NCBI GenBank assembly: GCA_029262035.1 | Contig: JAJDAE010000087.1 | Coordinates: 1 to 41,578, forward strand | Length of the DNA stretch: 41,578 bases | Direction of reading: 5' to 3' | From: Candidatus Zhuqueibacterota bacterium | GTDB taxonomy: Bacteria; Zhuqueibacterota; Zhuqueibacteria; Oceanimicrobiales; Oceanimicrobiaceae | Shown: piece after piece, positions 7,433 to 31,974 of the stretch | How positions within the stretch are numbered: the first letter of the stretch is position 1 | Layout: each line of letters opens with the position of its first letter | Program-made: the position numbers and the translations under genes | Notes under the pieces: generated by a model | Told to the model about the DNA's origin: nothing | Seen by the model: only the letters and a program-made list of their open reading frames with translations | Database searches by the model: none

Positions 7433-7449
7433 GATTCAAGATTTGCTAC
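7433..7449 (+). repeat. 17-bp motif GATTCAAGATTTGCTAC, left copy
   Basis: This 17-mer recurs exactly at 31895-31911, inside the right boundary repeat. A shortened form, CAAGATTTGCTAC, occurs at 7757-7769 inside the left boundary repeat. Three copies confined to the two island edges make it a candidate for part of an attachment or recombination site. No integrase gene is present to confirm this. Confidence 0.6.
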
Positions 7450-7612
7450 GATTTCTCAAGCAACGCAGATATATTAAGGAATCAGGTGTAAAATAAAAAT
7501 AAGGCTATTCCTCATTAAAACAGCTATTTACTTAATCATAACTTTTGTGGAATAGGAAAAAATCGCCCCTGCGCTCTTGCCTCGGAGTCAAGTGCTCTAC
7601 TGTAAAATAAAA

Positions 7613-7639
7613 AAGGGACACGCATTTGCTATGTCCCTT
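7613..7639 (-). terminator. hairpin downstream of the tRNA-Pro fragment, left copy
   Basis: AAGGGACA (7613-7620) pairs with TGTCCCTT (7632-7639), flanked by A and T runs, which suits a rho-independent terminator for the - strand tRNA. The right repeat has the same hairpin with different paired bases (GGGATAT/ATATCCC instead of GGGACAT/ATGTCCC), a compensatory change that supports a real structure. Confidence 0.6.
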
Positions 7640-7668
7640 AAAACAGCTATTTAGCTGTAATTATTTAG

Positions 7669-7721
7669 TCGGGGCGAAAGGATTTGAACCTTCGACCCCT
7701 TGACCCCCAGTCAAGTGCGCT
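7669..7721 (-). pseudogene. tRNA-Pro(GGG) 3' fragment, left copy
   Basis: Read on the - strand the segment begins at the end of the D arm (AGCGCA). It continues through an anticodon stem CTTGA/TCAAG with loop CTGGGGG (anticodon GGG), a T arm with loop TTCAAAT, and the acceptor 3' strand CGCCCCG with discriminator A. The 5' acceptor strand and most of the D arm are missing: upstream is TTATAATC, not CGGGGCG. No CCA is encoded. It is therefore not a working tRNA gene as it stands, but it is the kind of tRNA 3' piece left at island boundaries. Confidence 0.75.
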
Positions 7722-8049
7722 GATTATAAAAAACAATGACTTACAAAGGCTCAAGTCAAGATTTGCTACTATTCACATAAATTCGGCGTAAGTACAGATA
7801 ACTACTACTACTTAAGTAGTAATCTGAATATGATCTTTATATTTATGCCTAACTTATTTGAGCAAAATCATTTTACCTGTTAGAGCACTCTTCACATTTA
7901 AAAGTGCAGCCTTATATAGCGGCTCTTGTTATTGGAATAATATTGTTTTTTTTTTGTAACTAAACTTACGGCAATAGCGTTTATTACCTCTACATCCGCG
8001 TCGGCTTAGAATGAGTCGCACAAATACAAACTTCAATACTGGGGAATCA

Positions 8050-12958: not shown

Positions 12959-13030
12959 GACCCTATCGTCTAGTGGCTAGGACGCAGGCTATTCAGGTCT
13001 GTAACAGAGGTTCGATTCCTCTTGGGGTCG
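12959..13030 (+). tRNA. tRNA-Glu(UUC) with A33 in place of U33
   Basis: A complete 72-nt cloverleaf. The acceptor stem GACCCTA/TGGGGTC pairs at all seven positions (one G-U). The D stem is GTC/GAC and the D loop has GG. The anticodon stem CAGGC/GTCTG pairs with one G-U, its loop is TATTCAG (anticodon TTC at 12992-12994), the variable loop is TAAC, the T stem AGAGG/CCTCT is perfect with loop TTCGATT, and the discriminator is G. No CCA is encoded. The known E. coli glutamate identity positions are kept: U11-A24, U13-G22 with A46, no base 47, UUC, A37. Position 33 (12991) is A, whereas U33 is near-universal in elongator tRNAs. It lies between the CHAT gene and the first precursor gene. It may feed Glu-tRNA to the dehydratase at 24435. 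Confidence 0.85.
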
Positions 13031-13093
13031 CAGCATGCTATTCATGGGAACTTCCCAATTCATAATACTTCACATATCTAAGGAGACTCAACA

Positions 13094-13321
13094 ATGAAAC
13101 ACCGCTTAAAACTAAAAGACCTTGAAGTATCAAGTTTCGTCACAAGCTTATCGCAAAAGGATCAAAATAATGAAATTGGAGCAACAGGTGGGTGTACTAC
13201 AACGGGCACAACAATAACTATGTCTATCGTTAGTATAATCAGTCTTATCTCAAAAATGAGCTACGATTTTTGTCCCCAAGATACTGACAATTGCGGTCCT
13301 AGCGAAATGTATACTGTCTAA
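13094..13321 (+). CDS. lanthipeptide precursor A1
   Basis: A peptide of 75 residues with the family leader motif HRLKLKDLEVSSFVTSL and a GATGG ending at residue 33, the likely cut site of the C39 exporter peptidase. The predicted core is 42 residues with 14 Ser/Thr and three Cys (core positions 1, 27 and 34), starting CTTTGTT. AAGGAG lies 8 bases before ATG. It follows the tRNA-Glu by 63 bases and heads the precursor array. The core suggests many dehydrated residues but at most three thioether rings. Confidence 0.85.
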   Translation: MKHRLKLKDLEVSSFVTSLSQKDQNNEIGATGGCTTTGTTITMSIVSIISLISKMSYDFCPQDTDNCGPSEMYTV

Positions 13322-13442
13322 TTCGATGGAAGATATCGGGGGTTTTGTTTGAGCTCCCGATTTAATGGGACAGTCATTTGCTGTGAATTGTTACCTTTGA
13401 CACTACCTAAGTAAGAAATTACTTTCATTATAGCTAAGAAGG

Positions 13443-13469
13443 TTCACTTGAACCATAAACTCAAGTGAA
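13443..13469 (+). promoter_or_regulatory. perfect inverted repeat between precursor genes
   Basis: TTCACTTGA (13443-13451) and TCAAGTGAA (13461-13469) form a perfect 9-bp inverted repeat with a 9-base spacer. It lies 121 bases after precursor A1 and just before the ribosome-binding site of the leader-only gene. It could be an operator or a transcript hairpin. There is no T-run, so a simple terminator is less likely. Confidence 0.45.
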
Positions 13470-13496
13470 GTGCATTCTCACACTGGGGAGATGCTT

Positions 13497-13595
13497 ATGG
13501 AAGCAGCTAATCAAAAAAAACTGATATTAAGAGATTTCGCAGTAGAGAATTTTGCCAATAACTTGACAAAAACAAAATTGAGTGACACAAAATGA
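13497..13595 (+). pseudogene. leader-only lanthipeptide precursor remnant
   Basis: GGGGAG precedes ATG 13497 (another in-frame ATG is at 13491). The 32 codons contain KKLILRDFAVENFANNLTK, matching the family leader KKRLKLKDLEVSSFVTNL in spacing, then stop at TGA 13593 with no Gly-Gly and no core. It therefore looks like a precursor that lost its core, or a short peptide that imitates the leader. The DNA after the stop does not restore a core in an obvious way. Confidence 0.6.
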
Positions 13596-13646
13596 TTGTT
13601 CTACTTTAGCTTATTTGAGATTTCATCTTATCTTAAGGAGATTTAA

Positions 13647-13871
13647 ATGAAAAAAAGACTCAAACTCAAAGACCTAGAAGTATCAAGTTTCATTACACAT
13701 TTGCCTAACGCGGAAGTGAAGAAAGAACTTGGAGCTACAGGAGGGTGTACAACGGTAGGTACAACATTGACACTCACCTCTGCAACAACCCTCAGCCTCA
13801 CTGTAAGCGCGACTACAAATACTAGTCGTGATGACGGCTCTTATATGGATTGCTTAAGCACAGCAGTTTAG
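13647..13871 (+). CDS. lanthipeptide precursor A2 (extremely Ser/Thr-rich core)
   Basis: A peptide of 74 residues with leader KKRLKLKDLEVSSFITHL and the cut-site motif GATGG at residue 33. The 41-residue core has 19 Ser/Thr but only two Cys, at core positions 1 and 36, and begins CTTVGTTLTLT, close to the A1 core. TTAAGGAG lies 7 bases upstream of ATG. With so few Cys most dehydrated residues would stay as Dha/Dhb or be processed further, for example by the reductase candidate at 15485. Confidence 0.87.
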   Translation: MKKRLKLKDLEVSSFITHLPNAEVKKELGATGGCTTVGTTLTLTSATTLSLTVSATTNTSRDDGSYMDCLSTAV

Positions 13872-13964
13872 GAAAAACAGTGACTTCCGAGCCACTTTAC
13901 TTACGGATGTGAGGTCCAAGTCTAGGTATTCAAGCCTAAATTCATTTTACATAAGGAGACCGCA

Positions 13965-14141
13965 ATGAAAAAAAGACTCAAACTCAAAGACCTCGAAGTA
14001 GCCAGTTTCGTTACAACCCTTTCGAAGTTGGAAGAACAAAACCAGCTTGGTGCCATCTCCGGGGCGATGTGTACTTCCATTGTTACTTCAACAATGGTAA
14101 GTATTAGCGATGTTAATGACGGCCCTAGTGCTGCCGCATAG
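13965..14141 (+). CDS. lanthipeptide precursor A3 (short)
   Basis: A peptide of 58 residues starting KKRLKLKDLEVASFVTTL, behind AAGGAG with ATG 9 bases on. The stop is TAG at 14139. The cut-site region reads LGAISGAMC, so the double glycine is not strict. The core of about 25 residues has a single Cys, many Ser/Thr and the tail motif NDGPS shared with A4 (DGGPS) and A1 (CGPS). With one Cys it can form at most one ring, unless it acts with another peptide or is decaying. Confidence 0.8.
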   Translation: MKKRLKLKDLEVASFVTTLSKLEEQNQLGAISGAMCTSIVTSTMVSISDVNDGPSAAA

Positions 14142-14258
14142 AAAAAGCTAAAAGCAGACGGGTAGCTGGTACACATGGTTAACACGTATATTGTTGCTTC
14201 ACATTAATCGTCTATTTTAAATTCACAATTAACTTCACTTTACCTTAAGGAGAGCTAA

Positions 14259-14480
14259 ATGAAGAAAAGACTCAAACTCAAAGAGCTAGAAGTGTCCAGT
14301 TTTGTAACAAATCTGGAGGAACATCAAAATAATGTGCTAGCAGGTACAGGAGCAGTATGTACTCTAATAAGTCATCTATCAGCAGCAACTCTACTTTCTA
14401 TGACTACCGCAACTACTCTTACCACAGGCACTGAGGAGTCAGATGGTGGTCCTTCTGGTTGTGTTGACATCAGGATCTAA
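14259..14480 (+). CDS. lanthipeptide precursor A4
   Basis: A peptide of 73 residues with leader KKRLKLKELEVSSFVTNL and cut-site region LAGTGAVC. The core has about 14 Ser/Thr and two Cys, one near the start and one close to the end (PSGCVD). TTAAGGAG lies 9 bases before ATG. The leaders of A2, A3 and A4 are nearly identical at DNA level, which indicates recent tandem duplication, while the cores have diverged. Confidence 0.85.
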   Translation: MKKRLKLKELEVSSFVTNLEEHQNNVLAGTGAVCTLISHLSAATLLSMTTATTLTTGTEESDGGPSGCVDIRI

Positions 14481-18408: not shown

Positions 18409-18481
18409 CATCCACTTATTAAGGAGGCTTTAATGGTACACAAGAAAAAACTTGAATTAGACAATCTGATAGTCCCATCAT

Positions 18482-19803
18482 CACTAGTGTCCGGTTATAA
18501 GTCGAATAAATTCAATTGTCTTGATTGTACGTCAATAGAGTTTTTGTAATCAGCGTTTGTAAGTAGTTGTAAAATAGGCGTTCTTTCGAATTGTCTGACA
18601 CTCAATACTTGTAAAAAAGTGTAGAGTGAGATATCAAGTTTTAGCCGTTTTTTCACAATTGCAACCAGCACATATGTTGCAATTGCGATCCAGATTTGTG
18701 TTTTGACAGCATTTTCAGAAGTGCCGTAAAAAGCTTTAATTCGTAAATGCTGCTTTATCCATTTAAAGAACAATTCGATTTGCCACCGCGACTTATACAA
18801 ATTTGCTATTGTTAAAGCTTCGAGCGTAAAATTATTTGTCAGAAACGTAAAGTATTTTTCGTTTTCTGCATCATAATATCGAACCCTGCGTAGTTTATCT
18901 GGGTAATCTTTCCCTGGATAGAATCCAGTCAGGACAACTGTTTGGTCACATCGAAGTCCAGTTTGTTTATCGACTGGACGTGAATACAGTCTCCGTGATT
19001 TAAGATTATCTTTTGCACGAATTACAAAGAACGCATGGTGCTGATTGAACTGGTAAAGGCGCCAAAAATCGATATAACCGCGATCCATAATATAGAAAGA
19101 ACCAGCTTCTGGAATCAGAATGTCAAGTATATTGACGTCATGATATTTGCCGTCCGTAATTTGAATAAATTCAGGGATATTCCCTCGTAAATCCAGAAGC
19201 GTGTGCAGTTTAACCGCTGCTTTTCTTTTTCGAAACTTTGCCCATGGAAAAAGCGAAAAACACAAATCAATCGTTGATGAATCAAGAGCATAAACAGTTT
19301 CATCTAATTGGAAATCGAATTCGTCATCACGGTAAAGTTCTCGGGCCACCGGAATTAAAATTTGTGCGAAATCTGCATAAATTCGCCAATCTCTTTTTTC
19401 ATTAGCTTCCGCCAAAGTGCTGCGAGAAACTTTACCACGAATACCCATATGATAAAGTTTCGGCTGCATTGCCCGCAGACAGGCTTCGATATCACGCAGA
19501 CTTGCTCTGTAAGTAAGCTGAGCGAAAGCCATGCATAAAAAATGATCCCAACATGAGAAGCTTTTAACTTTATGATGACCACGATAACGGGTCACACATT
19601 TACGAAAGGCCTTTACGGGTAAATAGTCCATGAGTTCTGAAAATACAATTGTACCAGTATACATTCACCATCCTCCGAAAATGGGTTCGAGAATGGATGA
19701 ATATAGATTTTATTTCAAGTCGATCCCAAATATTTTATGGATATAACATAACTAAAATTAATCGGTTAAGCACTACTAAAAACCAAAACACCCGGACACT
19801 AGT
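18482..19803 (-). mobile_element. IS4-family insertion sequence, complete, with 10-bp target duplication
   Basis: The element is 1322 bp. The terminal inverted repeats contain a 12-bp exact match: ACTAGTGTCCGG at 18483-18494 and CCGGACACTAGT at 19792-19803. Directly outside are identical 10-bp target copies GTCCCATCAT at 18472-18481 and 19804-19813. It carries one transposase gene whose stop codon abuts the left repeat. The perfect target copies and intact gene suggest recent insertion. Confidence 0.93.
18495..19664 (-). CDS. IS4-family DDE transposase
   Basis: The protein has 389 residues. The DDE residues are visible in YALDSSTIDLCFS (first D), FYIMDRGYIDF (second D), and YKSRWQIELFFKWIK (E), the last showing the Y-(2)-R-(3)-E-(6)-K signature of IS4 transposases. 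The N-terminal region has FSCWDHFLCMAFAQLTYR and LRDIEACL, typical of the family. There is no frameshift, so the element should still be mobile. Confidence 0.93.
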   Translation of the reverse strand: MYTGTIVFSELMDYLPVKAFRKCVTRYRGHHKVKSFSCWDHFLCMAFAQLTYRASLRDIEACLRAMQPKLYHMGIRGKVSRSTLAEANEKRDWRIYADFAQILIPVARELYRDDEFDFQLDETVYALDSSTIDLCFSLFPWAKFRKRKAAVKLHTLLDLRGNIPEFIQITDGKYHDVNILDILIPEAGSFYIMDRGYIDFWRLYQFNQHHAFFVIRAKDNLKSRRLYSRPVDKQTGLRCDQTVVLTGFYPGKDYPDKLRRVRYYDAENEKYFTFLTNNFTLEALTIANLYKSRWQIELFFKWIKQHLRIKAFYGTSENAVKTQIWIAIATYVLVAIVKKRLKLDISLYTFLQVLSVRQFERTPILQLLTNADYKNSIDVQSRQLNLFDL

Positions 19804-20091
19804 GTCCCATCATTTGTAACAACTGTCAGCAAAGAATCTAAGGAGCAATTGTTAGGCGCTTCAGGCGGACTACAAACTTGCCCTTGCAGAACTGATGAAG
19901 CAGGGATTGAAAGCGGTGGCAAGACAAGAGTCCCACCAATTTGCGCTATACTATCGATAGCTTCATAAAGGTGCACCTGTGACTGCTATTGAATCGAAGA
20001 CTCGTGAGCCACCACAATTGCAACGCTTGGGATTGAAACAAAAAATAGCCAAAATTTTCTCTACTCATTAACTAATCGGAGGTCATCAATT

Positions 20092-20256
20092 ATGCTCAAA
20101 GAAACCAAACTTAAATTAGTGGATATAGAAGTGCAGGGGTTTGTGACCCTACTGGAAAGGCCGGATCAGAACAAAATTGCGGCTGGACTTTGTAGCGGCA
20201 CTCAAGGGCCCGAATTGTGTACACACTTCGGTTGTTCAAAAGGTTGTGGTGAATAA
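20092..20256 (+). CDS. lanthipeptide precursor A6 (Cys-rich core)
   Basis: A peptide of 54 residues: leader KLKLVDIEVQGFVTLL, cut-site region KIAAG near residue 32, then a 22-residue core with four Cys and three Ser/Thr (pattern LC...LC...GC...GC). CGGAGG lies 11 bases before ATG. The core is unlike A1-A4 and suits a compact multi-ring lanthipeptide, with fewer Ser/Thr than Cys. The frame stays open for 255 bases after the TAA (next entry). Confidence 0.8.
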   Translation: MLKETKLKLVDIEVQGFVTLLERPDQNKIAAGLCSGTQGPELCTHFGCSKGCGE

Positions 20257-20725: not shown

Positions 20726-20926
20726 ATGAGTAAAAAATGGACATTAAGCTCGATGACCTCAAGGTCCAAAGGCGTCGCCACCGCCTCAAAGAAGATGATT
20801 CTAGGAGGGTTTTTCGATACCGATCAGGCATATGGATGCACTCATAGAGTCACATGTCATCAATCATGTGGTGGTAACTTCCAGACTTGGGTGACATGCT
20901 CTACTGGACCGTCTTTAATTTTTTAA
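20726..20926 (+). CDS. lanthipeptide precursor A7 with out-of-frame leader segment
   Basis: AAAGGAG lies 8 bases before ATG 20726. The open frame encodes 66 residues: MSKKW, then a stretch without the leader motif, then MILGGFFDTDQ and a Cys-containing core with four Cys (YGC, VTC, SCGG, VTCS). Reading 20739-20765 in the other frame gives DIKLDDLKVQ, exactly the family leader. So the leader lies in frame +2 between two segments in frame 0, as if two compensating indels had occurred, the first next to an A6 run. The peptide may no longer be recognised by the modifying enzymes, or there are two sequence errors. Confidence 0.65.
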   Translation: MSKKWTLSSMTSRSKGVATASKKMILGGFFDTDQAYGCTHRVTCHQSCGGNFQTWVTCSTGPSLIF

Positions 20927-21280: not shown

Positions 21281-23416
21281 TTATATTTTAACTTTTTTTA
21301 AATCTTCCCGAAATTTGAGCATATTCTCACTGTTCTCTATTAAAAAACCTGCTAAGATTGCTTGCCTGACCTGTTCAACCACAGCTTGTTGAATAGATTT
21401 TTCTTGCTCGGTAGATGCCGGTTCAAAATTGCTAATGACCGCCTGTACCGCATCTGGTACAAGGCTATTCTTCTGAAATGCAACTAAAACTGCATAACTG
21501 AAAGAAGAAAGATGATCTTCTAGAACCTTGACATCAGCATCCGCCTTCAGTAATACCGTGTAAACATCCTTTTCAATATTCAAATTATCGACGCAACCCG
21601 ATTTCCTATTTGGATTCCAATCCCATCCAGTGAGTAAAATGCGCACATCAGGTTCAATCGCCAGGTTCAATTGTAGGATATCTTGATCACCCAACCCTTT
21701 CAACAGATTTACTGTCCGTTCGGTTTGAATTATTGTCTTGATGTTTAAAAGCGAACTACTGATAATGTTTTGTTCAATTCTATATTTTTCACACTCTAAA
21801 GTCAAAATATCTGCCACCAATTCCTGCTCAATGTCACTCAATGAAGGAATCAACTCCTGCTTAACAAAATTCATATACGACTGCTCTTCGGAAACGCCAT
21901 TGGATCCATGCCTCTCGAAATAATCCGCAGCTTGACAGGAAGCCAATTTTTCGACCAGGAGATTGGTTCGTCTAAAAGTCCTTTGAACGATTCGTTTTCT
22001 GATATCAACAGGAGTGGCTTTGAGAATCGAACCATTTGCAACGGCTCTTTTTGTATCCTCCGATGATTCAATTTTGGGCAGTAAAACAGAAGGTACTTTA
22101 AACGGCTCCAGCAATTTTAAAAAGAAATATCCAATGCCAGCATTACCCATGAACAGACTCGTGTCTTCCTGGCCATTGACCGTTACGAAGCCAGACATAT
22201 ATCGTTGCTTATTTTTCTTGACTTCAAGGGCTTGCAAAGCGACTTTTTCAGCTAGTGCCAAATAAGATTCATCCATAAAAGCCCTATAAGCTTCCAGAAA
22301 TATTTCCGCATTCCCGCAGCAACCATGACAAAGCGTAAAAGACCGTTGATATTTCTTTATGTCATTTTGTTCGGTATCAGGAATAATATCTGTTTCTTCT
22401 GTCTTATACAGTGCTATTTTGGCTTCTTGTGCATAAACATCTTTTTTTACCACTTCATATGCCCGCAATCGAGAAAGCCCGATCCCGGCGGCACCATGAC
22501 ACCAGGCATTCATAAACCCGGGTTGTGTGAAAAACGCGGTATTCCCTTCTATATACGCTGCTGTATGCTCTTCATAGTCTTTGGGCACCCAAATGCTTTT
22601 GCGGAAATCCGGCCAGTTTTTATTTTCTTCATTAAAAAAAAATCTCTCATAACAAAACGCCTCCTCTGCGATGTGATAGAGCGCTTCATTTTGTAAGTAA
22701 CGGCCCGCCTCCAAAAAGACAAAACCGATTCCCGCGGCACCATGAGAAAAACTGCATAGTCCTCGAATATTATTCGATGAAAAATCCCAGTACAACCCCT
22801 CCGGTCCACGATGTGAACGGTCAACCAGGCGTTGGAGGAACAAATCCGCTTTCTCAAGCAGCCATGCCTCACCTGTGGCAGCATGAAGTTGTAACAGACC
22901 CAATAATGTACCAGATGTGCCGTTGATAAGGTCGTCTACTGTATTAGTATTCTGCAAAAAAAGCTCGCAGGGTTCAGCAATATCCAATGCTCGTTCCAGA
23001 TAATGACTATCGTGGGTTAATTCATGCATTTTTAGAAGGGCGTATGAAACTCCCATACGACCAGTGAAGAACGCATAATTGTCGGACGGATTTTCCCGGC
23101 AGTAATGTACGACCCACCGCATCCCTTCAACTGCTGCCTCCAAGTAGTTATCATTGCGTGTCTGTTTGTAAAGCTCCAAAAAAAATAGCACAATTCCTGC
23201 ATTTCCGCTATATATACTCTCCCCATTTCTCCAAATTATATATTCTGGGTCCTCACGCTCCTTGGTATTGTCAATTGTCATGGTTTCCCAGGACATACCC
23301 TTCTTATCACGTTTAACCAACGAGAGTAATTCCTCACCAATTCTGACTGCTTCATTGTATATTTTATTTCTCGTTTTGTTATCCATGTTTTTTCCAGAAT
23401 TTTTATTCTTATTCAA
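21281..23416 (-). CDS. lanC: LanC-type lanthionine cyclase with ~280-residue C-terminal extension
   Basis: The N-terminal ~430 residues are a LanC fold. They have the zinc ligands in AWCHGAAGIG (C306) and LCHGCCG (C363, H364), counted from the TTG start, and the histidine motif SFSHGAAGIG, matching the active-site His of NisC. It adds cysteine thiols to dehydrated residues to form (methyl)lanthionine rings. NisC-like cyclases have about 400-450 residues. Here residues ~430-711 form an additional region I do not recognise, ending in TEQEKSIQQAVVEQVRQAIL. TTG 23416 overlaps the previous stop (TTGA). ATG 23386 is an equally good start. It is the last gene of the - strand operon. Confidence 0.9.
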   Translation of the reverse strand: MNKNKNSGKNMDNKTRNKIYNEAVRIGEELLSLVKRDKKGMSWETMTIDNTKEREDPEYIIWRNGESIYSGNAGIVLFFLELYKQTRNDNYLEAAVEGMRWVVHYCRENPSDNYAFFTGRMGVSYALLKMHELTHDSHYLERALDIAEPCELFLQNTNTVDDLINGTSGTLLGLLQLHAATGEAWLLEKADLFLQRLVDRSHRGPEGLYWDFSSNNIRGLCSFSHGAAGIGFVFLEAGRYLQNEALYHIAEEAFCYERFFFNEENKNWPDFRKSIWVPKDYEEHTAAYIEGNTAFFTQPGFMNAWCHGAAGIGLSRLRAYEVVKKDVYAQEAKIALYKTEETDIIPDTEQNDIKKYQRSFTLCHGCCGNAEIFLEAYRAFMDESYLALAEKVALQALEVKKNKQRYMSGFVTVNGQEDTSLFMGNAGIGYFFLKLLEPFKVPSVLLPKIESSEDTKRAVANGSILKATPVDIRKRIVQRTFRRTNLLVEKLASCQAADYFERHGSNGVSEEQSYMNFVKQELIPSLSDIEQELVADILTLECEKYRIEQNIISSSLLNIKTIIQTERTVNLLKGLGDQDILQLNLAIEPDVRILLTGWDWNPNRKSGCVDNLNIEKDVYTVLLKADADVKVLEDHLSSFSYAVLVAFQKNSLVPDAVQAVISNFEPASTEQEKSIQQAVVEQVRQAILAGFLIENSENMLKFREDLKKVKI

Positions 23417-24434
23417 ATTTGTTGCTCTTTCTCTGTGAGAGCTTCTAGACTCTTCTTAATTAAATAACCTAAATAAGCTTCGTCACGATTCAAAATTCCG
23501 AGTCGATTGTTGGTCATATGCACGTGGCTAACTAGAATCGACCAGATGAGTTGACGAGATTCTGGGATACCCAGCTTTAGGTTCACCTGAGCCCTACTTG
23601 GATAACTTAGAGTACCTGCTTGCTGCGCTTGTCGTAATTCATCACCGATTTTCAATATGCCTTGAATCCAAAGGTTGAGCCACTCATGTTCAAAGGTCAT
23701 TTGATTTTCAAGCGCGTCCCACAACGTTTCGTGAAATGGGATAAGCTGAGCTTTCTGTAAGTGGAATTGTTTCTCAAAAGAATCTATTACCTCTTTTCTG
23801 CGATCCGTGGAATTTTCTACCGGTTGTTTCTTTTCATAGTCATAGAGCCCTAATCCCCAGCCAAACCAGTTTTCAAAAAGTGCGGTATAAAATGCCGTCA
23901 CCTCTTCTAAGTTCATGCCTATGGCATGAACAAAAGCCAGATGCAATTGAATAGCCGCTCCCAACGCTCTTTCGTAACTCCAGTTTTGCGATTTGGCAAG
24001 GATGGCCAGTACAGCTTCTGAAGAGGCCTGAAACTGCTTTTCTGCAGTCAGAATGCCGTGTAGTCCGCCATAGCGCTCCATTTCGGGTTCGTACGAGATG
24101 TACTGGATAGAGTTATTTGTGAACCAAGACTGTGCGGCGGGTAGCTCTTTTATCCATCCAGGTTCAACTCTTTGACTCGGATTTGCACTAAAGTAGTTTA
24201 GAAAATGAGCATCAAGCTTTGGTTTTAGCTTATTTTTGAGGGTGGTTATATTCCCTTTAAAGCGCAGACGGACATGTGGTCCTCGTTCCCAGTAACGGAT
24301 AAAAAAGAACTGCTCTGCAAGGCCACTCGCGAGTGTTGAATCTACGAACGGTTTGATGGCATCAACCAGCAAACGCTCCCACGGCTCAGCGTAATAGAGA
24401 TAGGCGGCCAGCCAGCTTTTGTTAGCGGATTCCA

Positions 24435-24435
<1 letters not shown>
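23413..24435 (-). CDS. split dehydratase, elimination subunit (SpaB_C / thiopeptide-type domain)
   Basis: The protein has 340 residues. It opens with WLAAYLYYAEPWERLLVDAIKP and FFFIRYWERGPHVRLRFKG, the hallmark of the C-terminal domain of class I dehydratases, which removes glutamate from glutamylated Ser/Thr to give Dha/Dhb. In nisin-type LanB it is fused to the glutamylation domain. Here it is a separate gene, as in thiopeptide and pinensin-type clusters. GTG 24435 overlaps the preceding stop by one base (TAGTG), which indicates translational coupling, so the two halves are made together and presumably form a complex. Confidence 0.9.
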
Positions 24436-27650
<3,215 letters not shown>

Positions 27651-27654
27651 TTTT

Positions 27655-28980
27655 TCATCCGGTCGAATCAGTTAAAATTGCCCGCAGTTGGTTGAATATT
27701 CTCTCAAACAAACGCATTTCTTCGGTCACGATTTCTGCTGTACCTTGCATGCCTTGCTTAAATTCAAGATTTTTGTTGTAGCTGGTAGACAAACCTTCGG
27801 AAAGACGCACGGAGATGCTTTCAATATTCGCGCGTGTGACAAGCGAAATCTGTGTTACCTCGCCAGCAACCACACCGAATTCCCGGAAGGGGTAGCTGTC
27901 GAACTTAATGTTGACTCTTTGTCCTTCTTCGACTTTGCCGGCTCCAGTGCCTGGCAACTCGATTTTACCCAGAATATCCTCCGAACCAGGCACTACTGTC
28001 AGCACCTCTTCACCGGCGTTTACATACTGGTTGTCACTCCAGAAGCTGAAAAAAGAAATCTGACCGGCCACTGGTGCTCGCAAAACATAACGGTGTTCCC
28101 AATCGGCAAGTGCTGTTTGTAACCGTTTAAAGCTCTGCTGCATGCCGAGGGTAAGCCGACGCTCGTTTTCTTCGAGCTGAAAGCGGAGGTCGAGCAGAGC
28201 CTTTTGATAAACGATTAACTGCAGGTCGTTGTTGACGATAGTGGTCTCAGCCGATTCCATCGCGTGCTTTTTCTGCAGATAGGCCTCCTCGGCGCTGCCA
28301 ATCTCGAGCTCGGATATAAGATTTTTCTGAAATAGGGTGCGGCTTTTGTCGAGCTTACTGTCGGCCAGCCGGAGATCCTCAGTGGTCAAATCGCGCTGGT
28401 TGTGCAACCTTACCCCTAACTGATAATGTTTCTCAATCTGATTTTCAATGCCGGAGATACGGCGGGCGTTATAGTCAGTGGCATGAAGGAATTGATATTC
28501 ATCGACCTGTTGCAAAAAGTCAAGCCAGGCGCTCTGAATATCACCGAGTTCGACCCTACTCTCAAAGCTCTGCTGCAACATGTCTTCAGGGGTATGTGTG
28601 ATTGTGCTCAAAGAGTCGAGAATCAGCCGCAATGCCATAACATCCATCAGGCGTGCTGTACTCTCGATTGCGGCGAGATAGTCACCGCTAGCAACTTCGG
28701 CCTTTTCGGTGACAAACAGACTATCTAATTTACCAGAGGAACGCGCCACTACTGGCGATGGCGGTGTTTGGGTTGTAATGGTAATGCGTGCCGAGATGAT
28801 ATCTGGATATTTGATGAGCCAGGTAGCTCCGAGCATTAGGGCAACCGCCCCAATCACAATGGTAATGCCGGAACGAATAATCCAATGCGGAATATAACTC
28901 AGAATATCCTGAACCGCTTCGCTTCGAATTTCTAAGCCACTGTTGGTCGCAGCTGTTTTTGGTTCTACCATTGTATTCAT
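27655..28980 (-). CDS. HlyD-family membrane fusion protein
   Basis: The protein has 441 residues. There is a cytosolic N-terminus, one transmembrane helix at about 36-60 (IRSGITIVIGAVALMLGATWLI), a lipoyl/barrel-sandwich half-motif (VVARSSGKLDSLFV), a long coiled coil (about 180-300), and the returning segment YVLRAPVAGQISF with the beta-barrel ELPGTGAGKVEEGQRVNIKFDSYPF. It would bridge the ABC exporter encoded just upstream (4-base ATGA overlap) to an outer-membrane channel, as expected for a Gram-negative envelope. No TolC-like gene is in the window. Confidence 0.92.
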   Translation of the reverse strand: MNTMVEPKTAATNSGLEIRSEAVQDILSYIPHWIIRSGITIVIGAVALMLGATWLIKYPDIISARITITTQTPPSPVVARSSGKLDSLFVTEKAEVASGDYLAAIESTARLMDVMALRLILDSLSTITHTPEDMLQQSFESRVELGDIQSAWLDFLQQVDEYQFLHATDYNARRISGIENQIEKHYQLGVRLHNQRDLTTEDLRLADSKLDKSRTLFQKNLISELEIGSAEEAYLQKKHAMESAETTIVNNDLQLIVYQKALLDLRFQLEENERRLTLGMQQSFKRLQTALADWEHRYVLRAPVAGQISFFSFWSDNQYVNAGEEVLTVVPGSEDILGKIELPGTGAGKVEEGQRVNIKFDSYPFREFGVVAGEVTQISLVTRANIESISVRLSEGLSTSYNKNLEFKQGMQGTAEIVTEEMRLFERIFNQLRAILTDSTG

Positions 28981-31175
28981 TTTCCCAACTCAAGCTGATT
29001 TTTTACCAAATTGAAATAGGCTCCATGCGCGACGACGAGTTCTTCGTGAGTGCCGCGCTCAACAACCCGGCCTTCATCAAGTACAACCACCTGATCGGCA
29101 TGTTTAACCGTGCTGAGGCGATGTGCCACAATCACGACTGTCCGGCCATCAAAAAAACGTTCCAGTTTTTCGATAATTTCCCGTTCGTTGTTGGCGTCCA
29201 GAGCACTGGTGGCTTCGTCGAAAAAAATGAACTCTGGATTTTTATAAACCGCACGCGCAATCAGGATGCGCTGACGTTGTCCAACAGAGAGACCATGACC
29301 ATCCATTCCGAGTTTTGTATTGTACATCAATGGCAGTGACTCGATGTGTGCACGGATGTTGGCCATTTCAGCCGCTTGCACAAGCTTCGTGGTGTCAATA
29401 CGCTCATCGCCCGGCGCTATATTCTTAGCAACAGTGTCTGAAAAAATATAACCGTCCTGCATTACAACACCGCAGTTCGCACGCCACACCTTACCGCTGA
29501 TCTGTCCTAAATCCGTATCTCCCAATTTAACCTTACCAATTGTTGGTGCATAAAACTTAAGCAGTAATTTAATGAGCGTGGTTTTGCCGCTACCGCTCGT
29601 GCCTACAATCGCGGTCACTTTCTTTTGCGGAATATTCAGACTCAAACCTTTCAACACAAAGGGCGAATGTGGACCCTCATATTGGAAATCCAGATCTTGG
29701 AGAGACAGATTTCTCTCCGACGGCAAGATAGTTATTCGTGGTGCATCGCTTGGTTCTTCGTCCGCCGCATCATGAATCTCAGCCAAACGCTCCAGGCTAA
29801 TTTTCGCATCTTGGGCACTTTGAATAAAGCCAATGAGCTGAATGATGGGAGCATTCAATTGTCCGATAATATATTGAACTGCCATCATCATACCCAGAGT
29901 CATTTGGCCGTCAACAACTGCTTTGGCCACAATAAAAGTGATGAGAATGTTCTTGAGTTCATTGAGAAAAAACGAACCGGCTTGTTGGTATTGACTTAAT
30001 GCTAATCCTTTAATTCCTACTTTGAACAGCCGTGCCTGAATGTGCTCCCATTCCCAGCGCTTCTGTTTCTCGCAGTTGTTGAGTTTGATTTCCTGCATGC
30101 CATAGATGAGTTGAATCAGACTGCTCTGGTTGGCGGAGGCCTCACTGAATCGCTTGAAATCGAGTTCACGACGCTTCTGCATAAAAATTACTATCCACAA
30201 AGTGTAAAGCACACTGCCAACAATAAAAATCATGAAGATGGTCAGATTATAGGTTACAAGAACAATGCCGTAAACCACCAGATTCACGAGAGAAAACAGA
30301 GTACTCAGCGATGTTGATGTCATGAAACTTTCGATGCGGCGATGGTCGCCAATGCGCTGTAGAATGTCACCTATCATTTTGGTGTCAAAAAACGGCATGG
30401 GCAGTTTCATTAGCTTAATGAGAAAGTCGCTAATAATGGAAATATTGATACGTGTGGTGATATGCAGCAGAATCCAGCTACGGATAAACTCAACCGAAGT
30501 CCGCCCCGCGAACAGCATAAGCTGGGCGATGAGAATGGTGTAAATGAAGCCAATATTCTGGTTGGTGATACCAAAGTCTACCAAAGACTGAGTTAGAAAA
30601 GGGAAAACTAGCCCCAATACGCTACCGAGCAGCATACCCAGAATGAGTTGCAGTAGGTATTTCTTATATGCGAACAGGTACTTGAAAAAGAAACTGAGTT
30701 TAGTGCGGCTGCCAGTGAGTTCGTCTTCGGATTCGAAGAACCTCGGCGTAGGTTCTAATGCCAGTAAAATGCCTTCGCTTTGGGCATTTTCGCCAAACGA
30801 AATCCAGCCGCGTTTAAACTCCTCTTTATTGTAGTTTACCAGCCCGTGCGCCGGGTCAGCGACGCGTATTTTGTCTTTGTGTGTGTCATAGACAACGACA
30901 AAATGATGCTGCTTCCAATGTGCAATACATGGTAATGGCACTTCGTCTATCAAGCTGTCTATCGAAGTCCGGATTGACAGAGTACGCATGCCCAAAGTCT
31001 CGGCCGCGTCGCTGATACCTAGTAATGATACACCTTCGCGGCTAATGTAGGCGCGCTCTCGCAGCGATTCCAATGAATAACTCTTGCCGTAATGTTTCGC
31101 GACCATACGCAAGCATGTCGGCCCGCAGTCCATGCTGTCTAACTGTTTGTAAAAAGGAAAACGTTTTCTTCTCAA
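28977..31175 (-). CDS. lanT: peptidase-containing ABC exporter (C39, PCAT / LanT type)
   Basis: The protein has 732 residues. The N-terminal C39 peptidase has catalytic C17 in DSMDCGPTC, H91 in KQHHFVVVYD and D107 in VADPAHG. Membrane helices span about 165-430. The nucleotide-binding domain has Walker A GTSGSGKTTL, signature LSVGQRQRILIARA, Walker B FIFFDEATSALD and the switch histidine VAHRLSTV. It would cut leaders after Gly-Gly-like sites and export the core, in keeping with GATGG/GASGG/LGG in several precursors. It is first in the - strand operon lanT-hlyD-lanB-lanB(C)-lanC. No separate immunity transporter is seen. Confidence 0.95.
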   Translation of the reverse strand: MRRKRFPFYKQLDSMDCGPTCLRMVAKHYGKSYSLESLRERAYISREGVSLLGISDAAETLGMRTLSIRTSIDSLIDEVPLPCIAHWKQHHFVVVYDTHKDKIRVADPAHGLVNYNKEEFKRGWISFGENAQSEGILLALEPTPRFFESEDELTGSRTKLSFFFKYLFAYKKYLLQLILGMLLGSVLGLVFPFLTQSLVDFGITNQNIGFIYTILIAQLMLFAGRTSVEFIRSWILLHITTRINISIISDFLIKLMKLPMPFFDTKMIGDILQRIGDHRRIESFMTSTSLSTLFSLVNLVVYGIVLVTYNLTIFMIFIVGSVLYTLWIVIFMQKRRELDFKRFSEASANQSSLIQLIYGMQEIKLNNCEKQKRWEWEHIQARLFKVGIKGLALSQYQQAGSFFLNELKNILITFIVAKAVVDGQMTLGMMMAVQYIIGQLNAPIIQLIGFIQSAQDAKISLERLAEIHDAADEEPSDAPRITILPSERNLSLQDLDFQYEGPHSPFVLKGLSLNIPQKKVTAIVGTSGSGKTTLIKLLLKFYAPTIGKVKLGDTDLGQISGKVWRANCGVVMQDGYIFSDTVAKNIAPGDERIDTTKLVQAAEMANIRAHIESLPLMYNTKLGMDGHGLSVGQRQRILIARAVYKNPEFIFFDEATSALDANNEREIIEKLERFFDGRTVVIVAHRLSTVKHADQVVVLDEGRVVERGTHEELVVAHGAYFNLVKNQLELGK

Positions 31176-31671
31176 GTTTATTCAAACGATGAAGTGAATA
31201 ATTGTGCTTATAAGTTAATGTCGTATTGGTTAGAAGATTGGGGACATTTTTTTTATCCGAGCTCTAAAAACAGATCAAATTTCTTCGCTCTTACAATTAC
31301 AGACGTGTAGGCTATTCACAAAAAATTCAAAAAGAAATAGATCAACGCTGCAACTTGTATGTGTCAAGCTTTGTTAATAGAAGAATTCAATTTACTTCTT
31401 GTTGCTGATTCCACTGCCCTATTTCATCTACCAAAAATTTTATTTAGGTTTTGTTTTCAACGGTTTTTAATTAGTACACTGAAGATATTCACCCCATACT
31501 CCGGGCTATGGGGGCGACAAATAGATTCTGTAAATTTGCGTCACAGAAATTAGGCTAGGAATCTATTTTATGAGAAAAATATATCAAAAATTACTACTAT
31601 TTGCCACCAAGACAATATGAACAGAAACTGTTATAAAGAATCCGGAGAGACGAAAGGAACAATATTGTTAG
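31176..31671. other. upstream region of the exporter operon, right inner edge of the island
   Basis: No convincing gene lies here. It must contain the promoter of the - strand lanT operon, but I cannot assign boxes. A hairpin CCCCATA/TATGGGG (31492-31513, 8-base loop CTCCGGGC) stands out in this AT-rich stretch. A 64-codon frame at 31359-31553 has no ribosome-binding site and resembles nothing I know. Confidence 0.5.
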
Positions 31672-31765
31672 AACAGCTATTTATGTCATAAAACAGTTTA
31701 GAGTCGAAGTAAAAGAACACAATAGCACCTGATTAGGAGTCAAGTGCGTTCGGGTAAAATAGAAA

Positions 31766-31795
31766 AAAGGGATATAGCAACTGCTATATCCCTTT
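31766..31795 (-). terminator. hairpin downstream of the tRNA-Pro fragment, right copy
   Basis: AAAGGGATATAGC (31766-31778) pairs perfectly with GCTATATCCCTTT (31783-31795) around a 4-base loop, in an A/T-rich setting. It corresponds to the hairpin at 7613-7639 with compensating base changes, so the structure has been kept while the sequence drifted. Confidence 0.65.
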
Positions 31796-31810
31796 AAAAC
31801 AACTATTTAG

Positions 31811-31859
31811 TCGGGGCGAAAGGATTTGAACCTTCGACCCCTTGCCCCCCAGTCAAGTG
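31811..31859 (-). pseudogene. tRNA-Pro(GGG) 3' fragment, right copy
   Basis: It matches the left fragment from the discriminator base to the anticodon stem with one difference: TCAAG has become GCAAG, which breaks the closing pair of the anticodon loop. The match stops just before the D-arm piece retained on the left (upstream is ACAATACACTTG). No 5' half is present. It is not functional alone. Confidence 0.72.
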
Positions 31860-31894
31860 TATTGTCTATAAAAAACAATAACTTACAAAGACAC

Positions 31895-31911
31895 GATTCA
31901 AGATTTGCTAC
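31895..31911 (+). repeat. 17-bp motif GATTCAAGATTTGCTAC, right copy
   Basis: It is identical to 7433-7449, which lies outside the left boundary repeat, 24.4 kb away. It sits at the outer end of the right boundary repeat. Confidence 0.6.
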
Positions 31912-31974
31912 CATTTGTTAAAAATATACGCAAGGGTGTGTGAAATTGAGACGTTATTGCCAAGCTTGCAGAGA

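Follow-up and report, generated by a model that had tools for sequence, protein, structure and literature searches.

A lanthipeptide gene cluster in Candidatus Zhuqueibacterota (the window, that is, the whole stretch of 41,578 nucleotides analysed) carries an extra tRNA-Glu(UUC) gene, which departs from other tRNA-Glu at positions that matter to translation while keeping the strong determinants of charging by GluRS. We tentatively favour the reading that this tRNA has been withdrawn from translation, can still be charged, and acts as glutamyl donor for the adjacent split LanB. The wider claim, which we hold with slightly more reserve, is that a natural-product cluster here encodes its own tRNA cofactor, one that GluRS would charge and that EF-Tu and the ribosome would largely reject, leaving a private pool for LanB.

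ARAGORN and Rfam RF00005 alike call a tRNA-Glu(UUC) at 12959-13030/31 on the plus strand, with an Rfam score of 48.9 bits (E 1.3e-7, cut-off 29). The first-pass annotation had described the gene as fully paired, which it is: 21 of 21 stem pairs are standard (G-U in two), and the cloverleaf is also the predicted fold. Fold, anticodon and D-helix are those of an ordinary tRNA-Glu(UUC), with residue 47 absent as usual. The A at position 33 and the distance of 63 bp to the first precursor, both claimed in that annotation, were confirmed, with the A at window position 12991 and the precursor's ATG at 13094. The gene and the positions of interest are as follows.

12959-13030, plus strand: extra tRNA-Glu(UUC) gene, without encoded CCA (ARAGORN, Rfam)
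12991, plus strand: A33, replacing U33, the U-turn nucleotide (sequence, tRNA comparisons)
12996, plus strand: G38, which permits a U32-G38 pair and so a predicted anticodon loop of 5 nt
13008-13020, plus strand: T-stem pair 51-63, A (13008) with U (13020), an EF-Tu affinity position
13031-13093, plus strand: 63-nt spacer from the tRNA to precursor 1, with a short hairpin and an AAGGAG ribosome site

No terminator was found in the spacer. A promoter scan gave no clear promoter, a point against a dedicated donor.

Rfam finds 41 tRNA genes in the genome, which comprises 372 contigs and is 96% complete. Among them are a tRNA-Glu(UUC) of normal type, bearing U33 and adjoining tRNA-His (G000:C43:21544-21616), and a tRNA-Glu(CUC) on contig C314. 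The window copy is therefore a third tRNA-Glu and an extra one, not the genome's sole tRNA-Glu(UUC). Nor is A33 a habit of the lineage. It occurs in one of the 41 tRNAs of the genome, the other 40 having U33, and in a survey of 82 genomes of the phylum, with a pattern that left positions 33 and 49-51 open, it was found once among 132 tRNA-Glu matches; the window copy was the only A33 and the only non-G51 sequence among the matches listed. In the GTDB collection (84,980 genomes) nothing exactly matched a strict A33 pattern, which picks up no more than part of all tRNA-Glu, and when A or T was allowed at position 33 in Bacteroidota, 76 of 396 genomes matched, with T in all matches listed. A third tRNA-Glu, with a CUC anticodon, was also seen in another genome of the class (G029:C12:95-145).

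Compared with 45 other tRNA-Glu numbered by position, four states are found in the window copy only: A33, U32-G38, A51-U63 and A2-U71. It is U33 that forms the U-turn used in decoding. Pair 51-63 is G-C in all 45 of the others, while pair 2-71 varies among normal tRNA-Glu (G-C in 20 of 45). Thirty alignment columns are invariant among the 43 distinct other tRNA-Glu, and the window copy differs at 33, 51 and 63 only, a count made after the link between pair 51-63 and EF-Tu had been noticed, itself post hoc, so that neither was planned in advance. The elongator features that the window copy lacks are thus U33 and the family-typical EF-Tu pair G51-C63. It retains G18G19 in the D-loop, and it has A49-U65, which is normal for tRNA-Glu too (40 of 45).

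Affinity for EF-Tu is set by pairs 49-65, 50-64 and 51-63 (PMC11231383), and amino acids that bind EF-Tu weakly are paired with strongly binding tRNAs, glutamate being a weak contributor (PMC4499158). In the tRNA-Gly isoacceptors that Staphylococcus aureus reserves for cell-wall synthesis, A49-U65 and A51-U63 replace stronger pairs (PMC4052509, PMC9976931). Judged by sequence, A51-U63 together with A33 would fit a tRNA that is charged but kept outside translation better than A33 alone. Six further tRNAs encoded by this genome (Lys, Tyr, Asn, two Pro and Arg) likewise have A51-U63, so the pair by itself does not forbid translation. The A at position 33 may be a base-call error, although such an error would leave the two-sided change at 51-63 unexplained.

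On the charging side, we took the GluRS identity set, strong and weak determinants, from PMC9976931. The window copy has the whole strong set (U34 U35 C36 A37, U11-A24, U13-G22:A46 and no residue 47). Among the weak determinants, G1-C72 is retained and U2-A71 is replaced by A2-U71, so the first-pass statement that all GluRS identity positions are present holds for the strong set and G1-C72 and is otherwise overstated. The change at 2-71 counts against a dedicated donor, as does the chance that charging could suffer if U33 matters to the modification of U34. Taken together, the positions kept and lost appear to match what would be expected of a tRNA that is charged yet unused in translation, an expectation drawn from E. 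coli and Staphylococcus rules that may not be those of this phylum.

The surrounding genes supply a plausible user for such a tRNA.

13094-13321, plus strand: precursor 1, pinensin-type leader (NF038180, 30.2 bits, cut-off 24)
13647-13871, plus strand: precursor 2, with about 20 Ser/Thr in its core (NF038180)
13965-14141, plus strand: precursor 3 (NF038180)
14259-14480, plus strand: precursor 4 (NF038180)
20092-20256, plus strand: additional precursor-like ORF (weak leader match, below cut-off)
20726-20926, plus strand: additional small ORF, rich in Cys, Ser and Thr (no family match)
21281-23416, minus strand: LanC-like cyclase (PF05147)
23413-24435, minus strand: LanB elimination partner, Lant_dehydr_C (PF14028)
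24435-27650, minus strand: LanB glutamylation partner, Lant_dehydr_N, with a long Gln-rich insert (PF04738)
27655-28980, minus strand: HlyD-type export adaptor (domain search)
28977-31175, minus strand: C39-peptidase ABC exporter

All four tandem precursors (13094-14480) score above the curated NF038180 cut-off, and with pinensin leaders, LanB parts for both glutamylation and elimination, and LanC, the cluster is of the class I pinensin type. The glutamylation partner is homologous to TbtB (6EC7, E 7.9e-20); the elimination partner can be aligned with the corresponding C-terminal domains of NisB and MibB, and the RLR, ERYGG and HVH motifs known from that domain of NisB are retained in it. This homology makes a Glu-tRNA-dependent dehydratase credible. 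Split LanBs require Glu-tRNA(Glu) (PMC7296275), and in heterologous hosts LanB is limited by the supply of tRNA-Glu, output in E. coli rising with more tRNA-Glu/GluRS (PMC9993889). The position of the tRNA, on the same strand as the precursors and 63 nt before them in a cluster with a split LanB, speaks for a donor role; the lanB genes themselves lie 10 to 11 kb from it on the opposite strand, which speaks against. In addition, the large LanB part contains, within a charged insert, a poly-Gln tract of about 25 Gln encoded by CAG and CAA (window 25719-25826, minus strand) that is missing from three other aligned LanBs, and a carbamoyltransferase gene (PF02543/PF16861; 16738-18408) between a zinc-dependent dehydrogenase gene and an insertion sequence (IS) is possibly a tailoring enzyme of the lanthipeptide.

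In the mechanism we infer, the window tRNA, whose ancestor was probably a tRNA-Glu from within the host's phylum, would be charged by GluRS through its intact anticodon, A37 and augmented D-helix. As glutamate is weak on EF-Tu, A51-U63 would strip the tRNA of its compensating affinity and a poor ternary complex would be expected, with A33 and U32-G38 expected to impair decoding further. Glu-tRNA would then build up outside translation, where the split LanB would use it as its source of glutamyl groups, the product of 24435-27650 glutamylating and that of 23413-24435 eliminating on the Ser/Thr-rich precursors. The tRNA may share a transcript with the precursor genes.

Between the window copy and the genome's normal tRNA-Glu(UUC) there are 15 substitutions, and the D-loop shows one deletion. 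Ten of the 15 substitutions lie in stems: both partners are replaced in four pairs and one partner in two, with no pair broken. The probability that 15 random substitutions would keep all 21 pairs is about 1.4e-4, a value that argues against random decay alone and supports no particular function. Since all pairs were kept despite so many changes, this is not simple decay; random decay is unlikely, and selection has acted on the fold, though this may have happened in a different genome, with U33 lost only recently.

That last possibility leads to the main rival, namely that the tRNA-Glu was displaced or acquired horizontally, took its fold in another genome, is now losing function and stands before the precursors by chance; we think it doubtful, though well ahead of the other alternatives. 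Loss of U33 only recently, after transfer, would explain why the stems are still intact, and the tRNA is a singleton with no counterpart in relatives. Its locus also looks mobile. Two direct repeats, at 7433-7779 and 31668-31921, lie 24 kb apart and are 89% identical over 115 nt; both contain, on the minus strand, the 3′ half of a tRNA-Pro(GGG) and, after it, a hairpin resembling a terminator, and they bound a segment from about 7.4 to 31.9 kb that contains the cluster, an arrangement that resembles the mark of integration at a tRNA gene. Short pieces near these repeats resemble tRNA-Arg anticodon arms. Elsewhere in the same genome (contigs C198 and C327), a 3′ fragment of tRNA-Ala(GGC) with a GTAGCAAATCTTGA flank lies near tRNA-Gly (L011 1960-2070, L019), and the GTAGCAAATCTTGA flank is also found downstream of tRNA-Ala; an element family carrying tRNA 3′ halves is suggested for this genome. 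Within the segment, an IS (18433-19830; DDE transposase 18495-19664, minus strand; ACTAGTGTCC inverted repeats at its ends) has inserted at the start of a further precursor-like gene, so that the cluster may be decaying, a point against a dedicated donor.

The wider distribution of LanB bears on the same question. No second LanB was found in the 82-genome sample of the phylum, and the closest relatives, at up to 45% identity, come from Aminicenantes, Bacteroidota and further lineages; relatives of the host have the right-hand cytochrome genes in synteny without the tRNA-Glu or the cluster. The tRNA, for its part, reaches up to 80% identity with tRNA-Glu(UUC) from the host's phylum, against 64-73% with those of lanB-bearing genomes. 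The cluster thus looks acquired and the tRNA locally derived, and arrival of the tRNA together with LanB from a Bacteroidota-like donor is not favoured. A phage or plasmid origin of the tRNA was considered and rejected: there were two distant phage matches, no plasmid match and none in viral contigs. A scan of viral contigs with one LanB protein likewise found no relative. Displacement is further opposed by the tRNA itself, in that pair 51-63 has changed on both sides and is still paired, which is not decay, and the departures from invariant columns are all on the translation side while charging positions are kept; moreover, no related source tRNA was found.

The first-pass annotation had pointed to A33 tRNA-Glu copies beside lanB in related genomes, and this expectation failed. 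ARAGORN found no tRNA-Glu in the flanks (up to 10 kb) of 80 lanB loci (1.55 Mb), where the only two tRNAs were both Pro, and no A33 tRNA-Glu turned up in 24 other lanB-bearing genomes, every match having U33 and G51 (nine of the 24 gave no match). The cluster-borne A33 tRNA-Glu is a single case; this counts against a dedicated donor, and selection across lineages cannot be demonstrated from it. The private Glu-tRNA pool proposed in the annotation gains from the extra copy, from A33 being atypical of the lineage and from the fit of A51-U63; it loses the predicted recurrence, and use by LanB stays conjectural.

Another possibility is that the tRNA is one more elongator tRNA-Glu of ordinary function whose odd loop is tolerated; it would enlarge the whole pool during lanthipeptide production, and LanB would gain without a dedicated supply. 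Substitutions at U33 lower decoding but need not abolish it, other tRNAs of the genome use A51-U63, and the benefit of added tRNA-Glu/GluRS to LanB output in E. coli (PMC9993889) would apply here. Against this stand the rarity of A33 among the tRNAs of the genome (1 of 41) and the lack of a match to the strict A33 pattern in the 84,980 GTDB genomes, of whose tRNA-Glu the pattern detects only a fraction, and we regard this explanation as quite unlikely. Somewhat less probable again is that the tRNA was withdrawn from translation for another user of Glu-tRNA (e.g. tetrapyrrole synthesis), or that, uncharged, it acts in the precursor leader as an RNA for regulation or processing. The same sequence evidence of withdrawal would serve either version, and the tRNA does lie in what is probably the 5′ leader of the precursor mRNA; on the other hand, LanB is the sole Glu-tRNA user recognized in the window, and an uncharged role fits poorly with the intact GluRS set. 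Finally, a relic attachment site, left behind if the cluster had inserted at the 3′ end of the tRNA-Glu gene, would suit the tRNA's place at the left-hand end of the row of precursors and the occurrence of tRNA 3′ halves on elements of the genome, but is very improbable given that the window has no second copy of the tRNA-Glu 3′ end and no integrase gene was seen, and that the island repeats are of tRNA-Pro, not tRNA-Glu.

A dedicated glutamyl donor would bear on how aminoacyl-tRNA comes to leave translation for LanB and other enzymes that depend on it, and heterologous lanthipeptide production is limited by poor matching of tRNA-Glu. If our preferred reading is true, the window tRNA would be a natural answer to this diversion, a test substrate with which recognition by LanB can be told apart from translation and, possibly, a component of use in the orthogonal production of lanthipeptides. 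In the literature searched we found no cluster-borne tRNA for LanB systems and, in the open literature, no report of a tRNA dedicated to a peptide natural product; tRNAs for cell-wall synthesis are known.

Among known systems, the cluster is like the class I pinensin-type clusters of Bacteroidota in its NF038180 leaders on four precursors, split LanB, LanC and C39 exporter, and unlike these and related lanB loci in having a tRNA-Glu (none in 80 there). Its LanB partners are both homologous or alignable to the glutamyl-tRNA-dependent dehydratases TbtB, NisB and MibB. To our knowledge, those systems use the host's general tRNA-Glu. The tRNA differs from ordinary bacterial tRNA-Glu(UUC) in A33, U32-G38, A51-U63 and A2-U71. 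Its closest parallel in kind is the non-proteinogenic tRNA-Gly of S. aureus that serves the pentaglycine bridge, likewise an extra isoacceptor beside translational copies, with A49-U65 and A51-U63, and an aminoacyl donor for a non-ribosomal enzyme, the role proposed here. The window tRNA differs from that tRNA-Gly in that it is specific for Glu rather than Gly, keeps the G18G19 that is replaced in S. aureus, has lost U33 and lies within a natural-product cluster.
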